Shown here: piece by piece, positions 1 to 5,264 of the stretch | How the letters are laid out: each line of letters begins with the position of its first letter | How positions within the stretch are numbered: the first letter of the stretch is position 1 | Assembly (NCBI GenBank): GCA_016934695.1 | Contig: JAFGSH010000220.1 | Span: forward strand, 1 to 5,264 | Reading direction: 5' to 3' | Length of the DNA: 5,264 nucleotides | Origin: Deltaproteobacteria bacterium | Lineage (GTDB): Bacteria > Desulfobacterota > Syntrophia > Syntrophales > UBA2210 | Made by a program: the position numbers and the translations under genes | The notes under the pieces: generated by a model | What the model was told of the DNA's origin: nothing | The model's input: the letters and a program-made list of their open reading frames with translations, nothing else | Databases searched by the model: none

Positions 1-3000
1 GGAACCTCCGCCCGTGACTTCATGCGCAGTGAGACCCCTCCCCGGCCGTCTATCGATATGGTGGTTTGATCCGTGGGTTTTCCCTCCTCATCGAGGTCAC
101 GGATGGCATACAGTGTATACCCCCTCACATCGGACGTGACCTTCTGCAACCTCGTGATGGTGAGTCCACCCGCGCTGGTCAGGTTGTCGGGGGAAAAGCC
201 GAGGTCCTTCAGGAAGTCGAAGATCACCCCGTGGATAATTTCCTCCTTCCTGCTGGTTCCCACCGTCACCGTCTTTGCCTGGTGCCGGATGGCATCGATT
301 GGCCGGGACAGCTCGTCGATTGCCATGCCGAGAGAGACGTCCAACAGGTCGAGGGGAGAGGGTGAGACCTGCTTGTCCTTGAAATCGATGCGGAATTCCT
401 CAAGGGGGAGTTTCCCGGCGGCGTATTTGAGCAGGAGAGTGATATCAGATGCCACATCGATCCCCAGCGATGAAAAATATCCCTGGTTTCTGCGGTCCCT
501 GAAGGATGTGGAAAATTCATCTATCAGTACGTGGAGACCGGGATCCGTCAGCTTTTCGACGAGGAGCCCCTCCCGTTCGTCCAGTTCGTTTGCCTTGAAG
601 AGGAGCCGCTTCCGGAAATCGCGGATAAACTCGCTGTCCTCGTTGATACCGCATGCCGCGTAGTAGCCCCACAGGTGCCCGGCCAGGGTGTTCAAGATGA
701 CGGATATCGGAAAGGATGCCTTCGGGACCGGGATCACCGAGTCGGCGATGCCGTGGAAACTCTTTTCCCCCTCGTCCGCGATGACGACTACCGAAGCGGC
801 ATGCGCCTTGAAGATAGCCACATCCTTGACAATGTCGCCGAGGACGTAGGGCGCCGTGCCGGCGACGCAGGCAACAATCAGCGGTTCAGATGAGAGGTCG
901 ATATGTTTCTTGTCCTCAACGATGTCCGATGAGATCGTCTTGTAGCACAGTTCGCTCAACTTGATCCTGATCTCGTCGGCGGCAACCTTGTTGGGACCGC
1001 TCCCCACTACCGCCCAGTATCTCTTCTTCCCCGCAATGGAGCGTGCCGTCTCACCGATATGGTCTCTTCCGGCGATGACACGGTTCATGGCGTCCGGGGC
1101 CCGCTCGAGGTTCTCCAGTACCCCGGCCACCATGTTGTCCGAAAGGGTGCCGAGGGTCTGCCCCAGAAAGAGGGCCAGGATGTACCCCGCCACGATCTGG
1201 GAGTAGAATGCCTTGGTCGAGGCGACGGACATCTCGATGTCCCGCCCGTCGCTCGTATAGAAGACCCCGTCCGCCACGTGGGTGATATCGGATTGCCGGC
1301 GGTTGACGATGGCGATGAGGTGTGCCCCCCGTTCCTTCGCCATGGCAACGGCCCGGTTGGTATCGGTGGTGGTCCCCGACTGGGTGACGGCGATGACGAG
1401 GGTGTCATCCAGGTGTTCCTTGAGTGAAAAGCCGCTCAGTTCGGATGCCGTCTTTGCCTCGATCGTGATTCCCGGAACCGTGATATATGTCGCACATGCC
1501 TCGGCGATCGCCTTGCCGGCCACCGCCGCCGTCCCCTGCCCAATGACGAAGATGGTGCGAATCCCTCCCCGCGAGAGGGCCTCGCGGAGTCTCCGGGGTA
1601 TGATATCATCTCCCAGATTGAAGGTGACCTCGGCGCTGCCGTTGGTGCGGTAGCCGATGCGGTACTTGCCCCGCAGTGTCTTTTTGACGGAGAGCGGCGC
1701 GTCGGTGATCTCCTTCATGAGAAAGTGGGGATACCCCTTGCGGTCGATGTCCCTCGTGGTGATCTGCGCCTTCTGAATTTTATCTTTTCCAATCTCGATG
1801 GGGTATCCGTCATAGGTGCAGGCACGGATCATTCCCTCTTCCTCGAGGACGTAGATCTGTCCCTTCGTCTCCGGTCTGCCGGGGATCCGTTCGAGCTCTC
1901 CGTCCATCTTGATGAAACGGGGCGTGACCTCCACCAGCCCGTATATCTCCGATGAAAAGATATACTGGTTGTCGCACAGCCCGATGTAGAGCGATTGACC
2001 GCTCCCCTTGAGGGCGAGGTAGACCTTTCCCGGTTCCAGATTGCTCCGCATGGCAATGGCGTGGGAGCCCTCGAAATCGTTCACGGCCCGGCGGAATGAC
2101 TCCGCAAGGTCGGCCCCCCCGGAGAGGTATTTCTCTATCTGCAGGGCGATGATCTTGGTGTCCGTGGTCACCCGGTGATCGATGATCTCTCTGCCATCCG
2201 CTTCGATCGCTGAGCGCAGGGACCGGTAGTTGTCTATGTCTCCGTTGAGGGCGACATCGATCGTCCAGTTCCCGGTTCCGTAAAGGGGGTATTCCTTGAC
2301 CGGGAGCGGGATCTCGGCCGAGGAGTCGATCGCGGTAGAGAGCGTAAAATTGTTCACGGGATGACAATTTTCCACATTGATGGCCCCTACGGAGGCCCAG
2401 CGTGTATGGGCGAAGAGCACGTCGTGCCCCATCCCTCCGGCGAGACACCGTTTGAGTATCCTGTCCGATCGGATCCGGTCCCGCAGGTAGCGGGTATTTT
2501 CACCCAGCTCCCCGGTAACGGAGGCACGCTTGTACGTAAAGGTGAGAAGCGGGTCTTTCCCTGACACGCGGCCGGAGAGGGTGATGGCACCGTCCAGAAG
2601 ATCGCCGGGGACAGTCCGTATCAGGAATTCGTCGTACAATCCATCGGCCTTCAGGGCCGTGATTACGGTATCCGGTGACGAGGTTTTCTCGGGACGGAGC
2701 GTTATCTCCACCCCCGCAGAATCTCTTCCCCGGACCTCGATACGATCCAGCGAATTGAGGAGGAGATTGATCCGCCAGTATATGGAGACGGCCTCCGGTG
2801 TAAGGGTATCGGGTGCGCCCCCGGCCAGATCGAGGACCTTGTCGCGATTGGCCAGGATGTCCTTTTCAAGGGCCCATGCCGCATCCTTCAGGATCTCGAT
2901 CGATTCGTTGATCCGTTCCATCTCTCCCGTGGAAAGCTGACCCGCCGTCTCTTCTATCAGCGCTTCCTCCTCCGCCAGGAACGAAATCATCCCCTCGGAC

Positions 3001-3383
3001 AGGGTGGCAAGGGCCTCTTCCCCGTCAGGTGAGAAAATGGTCAGCGGGTCCTTCTTCAGGTCGAGGATACCCCCTTCCAGAGTACGGAGCAGATCAGCGC
3101 CTCCCAGGTACCCTTCGGGAGCGATCGAACCGTTCATGAGGGATTGGAGGCCACATTTCCTGATCTGATCAAAGAGTGAGGCGGGGGTGACGGTGCCGGC
3201 ACCCTTTTTTTTCTCTTTCGGTTTGATCGTAATGATCCCGGAGAGGCCGCAGGGGAGGATCGTGCGGGTCACCGGAAAGAGTATGATGGTGCCCGGCGGG
3301 ACATGACGAGGGTCACGACCGATGCGGATACGCCACCCGTGCAGGTACCGAAACAAAAGGGGTCCGTCCTCACGTTTGAACAT
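1..3383 (-). CDS. Giant GlmS-like amidotransferase/SIS protein, 3' end outside the window
   Basis: Open for 1127 codons from ATG 3383 to the window edge, with no stop or frameshift in my hand translation. By homology it is a glutamine:fructose-6-phosphate amidotransferase (GlmS type), which makes glucosamine-6-phosphate in the cytoplasm. Domains: leader 1-44; CGLSG nucleophile motif at 45-49; extra region about 50-205; class II amidotransferase core about 206-480 with RGRDSAG (218-224), HTRWASVG (326-333), oxyanion NGDIDN (380-385) and TDT (407-409); linker with GYPHFLMKEI (550-559); SIS1 about 600-730 with TQSGTTTDT (667-675) and VASTKAF (720-726); SIS2 about 780-917 with K808, E811 and H827 matching E. 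coli K485, E488 and H504; extra region about 918-1026; C-tail QAKTVTVG (1035-1042) with K1037 matching K603; further extension to at least 1127. Usual GlmS is about 600 residues. The ATG has a Shine-Dalgarno site 10 bases upstream and lies 34 bases after pyrG, so an operon is likely. Family certain; exact substrate inferred. Confidence 0.9.
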   Translation of the reverse strand, partial: MFKREDGPLLFRYLHGWRIRIGRDPRHVPPGTIILFPVTRTILPCGLSGIITIKPKEKKKGAGTVTPASLFDQIRKCGLQSLMNGSIAPEGYLGGADLLRTLEGGILDLKKDPLTIFSPDGEEALATLSEGMISFLAEEEALIEETAGQLSTGEMERINESIEILKDAAWALEKDILANRDKVLDLAGGAPDTLTPEAVSIYWRINLLLNSLDRIEVRGRDSAGVEITLRPEKTSSPDTVITALKADGLYDEFLIRTVPGDLLDGAITLSGRVSGKDPLLTFTYKRASVTGELGENTRYLRDRIRSDRILKRCLAGGMGHDVLFAHTRWASVGAINVENCHPVNNFTLSTAIDSSAEIPLPVKEYPLYGTGNWTIDVALNGDIDNYRSLRSAIEADGREIIDHRVTTDTKIIALQIEKYLSGGADLAESFRRAVNDFEGSHAIAMRSNLEPGKVYLALKGSGQSLYIGLCDNQYIFSSEIYGLVEVTPRFIKMDGELERIPGRPETKGQIYVLEEEGMIRACTYDGYPIEIGKDKIQKAQITTRDIDRKGYPHFLMKEITDAPLSVKKTLRGKYRIGYRTNGSAEVTFNLGDDIIPRRLREALSRGGIRTIFVIGQGTAAVAGKAIAEACATYITVPGITIEAKTASELSGFSLKEHLDDTLVIAVTQSGTTTDTNRAVAMAKERGAHLIAIVNRRQSDITHVADGVFYTSDGRDIEMSVASTKAFYSQIVAGYILALFLGQTLGTLSDNMVAGVLENLERAPDAMNRVIAGRDHIGETARSIAGKKRYWAVVGSGPNKVAADEIRIKLSELCYKTISSDIVEDKKHIDLSSEPLIVACVAGTAPYVLGDIVKDVAIFKAHAASVVVIADEGEKSFHGIADSVIPVPKASFPISVILNTLAGHLWGYYAACGINEDSEFIRDFRKRLLFKANELDEREGLLVEKLTDPGLHVLIDEFSTSFRDRRNQGYFSSLGIDVASDITLLLKYAAGKLPLEEFRIDFKDKQVSPSPLDLLDVSLGMAIDELSRPIDAIRHQAKTVTVGTSRKEEIIHGVIFDFLKDLGFSPDNLTSAGGLTITRLQKVTSDVRGYTLYAIRDLDEEGKPTDQTTISIDGRGGVSLRMKSRAEV
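3185..3212 (+). terminator. Weak terminator-like hairpin plus T8 tract, antisense and intragenic
   Basis: Read on the plus strand, a perfect 12-base palindrome GGTGCCGGCACC (3192-3203) is followed by one C and eight T (3205-3212), the layout of a Rho-independent terminator. The stem is short: 4 bp with a CCGG loop, or 5 bp pairing GGGTG (3185-3189) with CACCC (3200-3204). It sits inside the GlmS-like coding region on the opposite strand, so it could only act on antisense transcripts. It may simply be the coding of Lys-Lys-Lys-Gly-Ala-Gly-Thr. Confidence 0.2.

Positions 3384-3417: not shown

Positions 3418-5264
<1,847 letters not shown>

Follow-up and report, generated by a model that had tools for sequence, protein, structure and literature searches.

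A giant GlmS-like protein occurs instead of ordinary GlmS in nearly all carriers within one sampled bacterial phylum

Glucosamine-6-phosphate (GlcN6P) synthase, GlmS, is represented by the E. coli enzyme (608 residues, structure 2j6h, family profile TIGR01135) and by human GFAT-1 (structure 6r4i). In Bacillus subtilis, GlmS is reported to be a control point at the branch leading to the cell wall, regulated by the external protein GlmR and a ribozyme (PMC6171935). In the large glutamate dehydrogenase L-GDH180 (7jsr, solved at 6.27 Å), sensor-like domains lie N-terminal (PMC8175468), and the catalytic core is other than that of the protein studied here. The latter is encoded in the window, by which we mean the whole stretch of DNA analysed: one complete contig of 5264 bp (JAFGSH010000220.1) from a Deltaproteobacteria bacterium of the Syntrophales. 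On the minus strand, an uninterrupted GlmS-like frame opens with an ATG at 3383 and continues for 1127 codons up to position 3, where the window stops. We refer to its product and relatives as giants; the relative L001 would have about 1200 residues in its mature form. Unlike GlmS, giants carry two helical insertions, a propeptide-like leader in one group, and an internal tail lysine followed by about 207 residues, and they score under the family cut-off. Compared with B. subtilis GlmS, a candidate control part would be built into the enzyme rather than supplied by an external protein or ribozyme.

An earlier note on this DNA, made from the sequence alone, had described a protein of at least 1127 residues in which the GlmS motifs follow one another in order from the nucleophile Cys to the tail Lys. 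The single open frame and the alignments bore this out (Table 1). Two alignments were used, one of 18 homologues, the window protein among them, and one of 92 rows without it, from which residue counts were taken. In the latter, the class II glutaminase set was conserved (Cys in 90 rows and a gap in the other two; Arg and Trp of HTRWA, Asn-Gly and Asp in 92/92), and the isomerase set (Lys, Glu, His and tail Lys) was invariant, as were Gln-Ser and Ser, each residue being found in 92/92 rows. The Lys and Glu of KLSE are presumably the counterparts of E. coli K485 and E488; H827 and K1037 we take to be those of H504 and K603.

Homology to GlmS was also clear from profile searches. Pfam detected SIS and GATase_6/7 in the window protein, and the best solved structures by sequence were 2j6h and 6r4i. 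The two NCBIfam glmS-type matches reached 233.8 and 255.3 bits, both under curated cut-offs; the former was obtained with the GlmS equivalog TIGR01135, for which the cut-off is 418 bits. The predicted core fold comprises a glutaminase plus a double SIS unit, as in GlmS, and residues 1..997 of the model were structurally aligned onto E. coli GlmS 1..608, reaching the internal tail HQAKTVTVG, where the predicted local distance difference test score (pLDDT) is <50. A MAFFT placement of the canonical tail at giant residues 923-930 was rejected, HQAKTVTVG at 1034 being invariant, structurally aligned and a match to LAKSVTVE. The catalytic tail ends the protein in GlmS; in the relatives of the window protein a median of 207 residues follow the tail Lys. 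The gene very probably codes for the working GlcN6P synthase of its host; because two curated features of GlmS, the score and the C-terminal position of the tail, are lacking, we class the giant as a separate, larger form with GlmS-like function.

GlmS profiles were compared across genomes. The 18 genomes reached through giant loci contained exactly one giant each (189-239 bits against TIGR01135) and no TIGR01135 match over cut-off (0/18), whereas such a match was present in 14/14 control genomes. A canonical GlmS over cut-off was present in 155 of 198 genomes sampled from the phylum; 25 had a giant, and 19 had neither over threshold. Canonical GlmS was absent over cut-off in 24 of the 25 giant carriers (Fisher p 3.6e-18, relatedness being ignored). 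Incompleteness of the genomes is unlikely to explain this gap alone, because most other genomes do show canonical GlmS. Thus, within the sampled phylum, carriers have the giant in exchange for ordinary GlmS, an observation that is new here and that the earlier note did not contain. One carrier (G200) has both proteins, and in G149 the giant is split over two contigs.

The additional length of the giants was located by measuring median distances between motifs in 108 of 119 listed Syntrophales-type giants and 13 of 16 canonical GlmS. Two further groups were treated in the same way, Desulfomonile/gamma (87/120) and Azospirillaceae (21/26). Strict motif patterns left 11/119, 33/120 and 5/26 giants and 3/16 canonical proteins unmeasured, some of which are fragments or have late start calls. 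For Syntrophales-type giants against canonical GlmS, the values were 46 vs 1 residues before Cys, 178 vs 25 from Cys to RGxDSAG, 109 vs 45 from there to HTRWA, 53 vs 26 from HTRWA to NG, 292 vs 251 from NG to QSG, 53 vs 51 from QSG to VASTKAF, 88 vs 87 from VASTKAF to KLxE, 229 vs 118 from KLxE to the tail Lys, and 207 vs 5 after it. The same segments measure 44, 173, 108, 53, 288, 53, 88 and 229 residues in the window protein, which then meets the window end. In the Desulfomonile/gamma group, the nine values were 1, 161, 101, 39, 280, 53, 88, 209 and 207; in the Azospirillaceae group they were 1, 155, 100, 39, 277, 53, 88, 208 and 199. The spacing of the SIS core is therefore constant, and the enlargement affects the glutaminase half, the region ahead of the tail and the C-terminus, at the same places across distant groups. 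Both insertions are helical in the predicted model of L001. These lengths confirm the earlier view that the excess lies at four main places, with smaller expansions between RGRDSAG and HTRWA; that list was incomplete, as smaller expansions also occur from HTRWA to NG and from NG to QSG.

Table 1. Features of the window, with residues numbered on the window protein
Feature	Position	Strand	Basis or remark
pyrG, CTP synthase	ORF 5136..3418	minus	named by eye from sequence; likely start an internal ATG near 5028
Leader, residues 1-44, candidate propeptide ahead of C45	3252..3383	minus	length, motif, codon test
Glutaminase nucleophile C45	3249..3251	minus	Cys in 90/92 alignment rows, gap in 2
Insertion 1, about residues 54-201, helical, after first strand	2781..3224	minus	borders approximate; 173 residues Cys-RGxDSAG vs 25
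RGRDSAG motif, residues 218-224	2712..2732	minus	motif reading and segment measurement
Expanded RGRDSAG-HTRWA stretch, residues 225-325	2409..2711	minus	63 more than canonical
HTRWA, glutaminase site, residues 326-330	2394..2408	minus	R and W in 92/92 rows
LNGDIDNY, residues 379-386 (canonical HNGIIENY)	2226..2249	minus	N and G in 92/92 rows
TQSGTTTD sugar-phosphate loop, first SIS domain, residues 667-674	1362..1385	minus	Pfam SIS E 1.9e-15; Q and S in 92/92 rows
VASTKAF, residues 720-726	1206..1226	minus	alignment
KLSE, residues 808-811	951..962	minus	K and E in 92/92 rows; aligned to E. coli GlmS
H827	903..905	minus	92/92 rows; aligned to E. coli GlmS
Insertion 2 (helical), ahead of the C-tail, about residues 915-1025	309..641	minus	borders approximate; KLxE-tail Lys 229 vs 118
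Internal catalytic C-tail HQAKTVTVG, residues 1034-1042, with K1037	258..284	minus	K in 92/92 rows
Start of C-terminal domain, residue 1043 on	3..257	minus	about 85 of about 200 residues inside the window

The giants also form a lineage of their own, as the earlier note had supposed. When 22 giants were placed in a tree with 16 canonical GlmS (599 columns), the two sets came apart with a support of 1.000, divided by a branch of 1.71. Identity averaged 28% across this split and 54% within the giants. Homologues sharing the same insertions have about 1100-1290 residues. The homology searches listed the best 120 of 7984, 7029 and 5965 proteins over threshold, totals which probably include canonical GlmS. 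Among the matches listed, named carriers included Syntrophales, Smithella, Desulfobacterales, Desulfomonile tiedjei (Desulfomonilaceae) and Ca. Competibacteraceae, as well as the isolates Niveispirillum and Nitrospirillum (both Azospirillaceae), Rhodocista pekingensis, Indioceanicola profundi and Aerophototrophica. Databases label them as SIS domain-containing protein or glutamine--fructose-6-phosphate aminotransferase, and no published description of the family was found in searches of open-access literature. Flavobacteriales-type matches (L066-L071) were discarded as giants, being ordinary GlmS of 615-622 residues; the giant profile scored 135 and 140 bits in two tested genomes of this type, and a search over 148 genomes of that phylum, which had no positive control there, found no giant.

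The nearest relative among the matches listed is 86% identical and 1244 residues long, and so about 117 residues of the window protein are missing from the window. The sequence to the left of position 1, which the earlier note had wished to obtain for the C-terminus, is not in the contig.

The class II amidotransferases PurF and glutamate synthase GltB are made with propeptides, a leader preceding the nucleophile Cys. Syntrophales-type giants likewise have such a leader, unlike the canonical GlmS sampled here, which are read from an MC start. The Cys motif could be located in 112 of 119 Syntrophales-type proteins; of these 112, the leader exceeded 20 residues in 109, and in 107 a Pro, mostly as FP, was followed by exactly seven residues and then Cys. 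This pattern was seen in 0/129 proteins of the other two groups, where annotated leaders of more than 20 residues were found in 1/104 and 2/25 cases, without the Pro motif; the leader with its motif is thus confined to one group. In 110 of these 129 proteins, Met directly precedes Cys, which fixes Cys45 as the nucleophile. Differences at codon position 2 amounted to 0.364 in the leader (43 loci) vs 0.744 in the upstream control (13 loci). By analogy with PurF and GltB, the leader is probably removed in maturation and represents a candidate propeptide. One Syntrophales-type locus, L013, opens directly at MCG. In another giant, L099 (G177:C1:1641607-1645266), there is one in-frame TGA, and the main frame is leaderless, with MCGIAG after one residue.

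Beyond the tail, the isolated C-terminal 199 residues of L001 gave a confident predicted fold (pLDDT 91.8, predicted template modelling score 0.85), for which the best structural matches were PAS/GAF-like. From this model, the C-terminal domain may be PAS/GAF-like. A Pfam scan of 46 members of this domain listed 8 families, with no PAS or GAF among them. A comparison by hhalign with four large glutamate dehydrogenase frames of the phylum found no relation (probability 0.8%), the template being shallow and built from raw frames. Over the 18 giant-bearing genomes, the C-terminal profile matched only giants plus one broken fragment. This fragment (G015:C17:9906-10112) matches part of the giant's C-terminal domain and has two TAG stops inside.

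In the window, 34 bases separate the ATG of the giant from the end of pyrG; a GGGAG sequence stands ten bases ahead of this ATG, and the pyrG-giant adjacency recurs in relatives. Near upstream same-strand neighbours in 36 loci were a GlmU-like beta-helix protein of about 400-430 residues (18), pyrG (9), glutamate synthase (2), CarA (2) and CarB (1), the Car genes being named by eye, a GlmU-acetyltransferase-like gene in L058, and others (3). Downstream, in 41 loci, we found pyrG (16), HisH (9), an NrpR-type regulator (7), GuaA (3, by eye), the beta-helix protein (2), GlmM in L058, and others (3). The order in L001:15-13128 is glnA (by eye), a class I amidotransferase, a three-part glutamate synthase, pyrG, the giant, hisH and hisF; in L058, the giant stands between the GlmU-acetyltransferase-like gene and GlmM (541.8 bits, over cut-off). 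The NrpR-type nitrogen regulator downstream of the giant was recognised in L026 (PF01995, 280 bits) and, by likeness to that copy, in L029, L034, L035, L037, L059 and L065. A plasmid comparison gave no match, and an Rfam scan of the window at gathering thresholds gave no RNA element.

The following amino-sugar genes were also surveyed. GlmM was over cut-off in 16/18 giant-bearing genomes and full-length GlmU in 0/18, with a partial match in 15, nearly all of the uridylyltransferase part only and mostly in frames of 250-300 residues. Across the phylum, GlmU over cut-off was present in 101/198 genomes but in 2/25 giant carriers (p 2e-6); the GlmU-like beta-helix protein was found in 34/198 genomes and 21/25 giant carriers (p 8e-16), the four carriers without it being those with divergent, shorter giants. 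Over curated cut-offs, the control genomes yielded GlmM in 8/14 and GlmU in 9/14, vs GlmS in 14/14. Since the GlmM and GlmU profiles miss many controls, their absence is weaker evidence than that of GlmS. The beta-helix protein, a left-handed helix of about 430 residues with a C-terminal extension (L021:6676-7959 and relatives L108-L115), matched no significant Pfam family. It is a candidate for the free-standing acetyltransferase of a split GlmU.

The giant is best read as an enlarged, highly diverged GlcN6P synthase that has displaced ordinary GlmS among its carriers and would be the sole such enzyme of these bacteria, a reading to which we give a probability of roughly 0.8. In the mechanism proposed, the 44-residue leader would be removed to expose Cys45 as the N-terminal nucleophile, and the glutaminase half would free ammonia from glutamine. 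The two-SIS half would ring-open and isomerise fructose-6-phosphate through the conserved Lys, Glu and His, the internal HQAKTVTV tail would give the Schiff-base lysine, and the GlcN6P formed would pass to GlmM. The moving C-tail would be framed by a helical block before it and the PAS/GAF-like domain after it, parts well placed to make the enzyme respond to a metabolite that reflects nitrogen or nucleotide status. Leader cleavage, enzyme activity and sensing, and with the last any added regulation by the extra parts, are what we infer from these features.

As a separate domain follows the catalytic tail at once, regulation is the bolder, testable reading. In its fullest form, a self-regulated GlcN6P synthase, leader-cleaved in one group, would read a nitrogen or nucleotide signal through a PAS/GAF-like sensor on its C-tail and gate cell-wall entry; together with a split uridylyltransferase and the GlmU-like protein as a free-standing acetyltransferase, it would make up an alternative pathway to UDP-N-acetylglucosamine in Syntrophales and relatives. 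We regard this whole as doubtful. The giant may instead be a GlcN6P synthase whose extra parts are structural only, serving the oligomer form or the binding of the GlmU-like protein or GlmM, without sensing. The helical nature of the two added segments in the model fits such a role, as do the frequent neighbourhood and co-occurrence of the GlmU-like protein and the lack of a sequence match between the C-terminal domain and a known sensor family; the PAS/GAF-like arrangement of this domain, its place directly after the catalytic tail and a length that hardly varies between distant groups (medians of 199-207 residues past the tail Lys) speak for more than that. We hold this structural role to be a serious possibility that falls somewhat short of even odds.

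A further alternative is that the giant is an amidotransferase for another ketose phosphate, making another amino sugar and not supplying the cell's GlcN6P. Sugar-site residues that differ from GlmS (CGTS to QGTA, SQSGET to TQSGTT) point in this direction, and they count against a GlcN6P synthase together with the identity of only 28% to canonical GlmS and the score under the curated cut-off. However, ordinary GlmS is missing from 24/25 carriers and from all 18 genomes, yet GlmM is present in 16 of the latter and directly adjoins the giant in L058, and the Lys/Glu/His/Lys catalytic set is invariant; this alternative is therefore improbable. Finally, that the giant is an assembly fusion or frame artefact, a suspicion raised by a window of one short contig, is refuted, with a negligible residual chance, because homologues share its plan (108/119 listed and measured, on separate contigs of up to 2.6 Mb, with named isolates among the carriers). 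Of the two findings that the earlier note had named as fatal to its claim, such a fusion and homologues that all lack the insertions, neither holds.

Amino-sugar and cell-wall synthesis begin with GlmS, which is commonly pictured as a single conserved protein of 600 residues. As the carriers in the sampled phylum are almost always without this ordinary enzyme, annotation based on the cut-off for GlmS would overlook their GlcN6P synthase. The gene context links the supply of cell-wall precursors to glutamine use, and the additions that flank the moving catalytic tail suggest an allosteric arrangement, which is directly testable.
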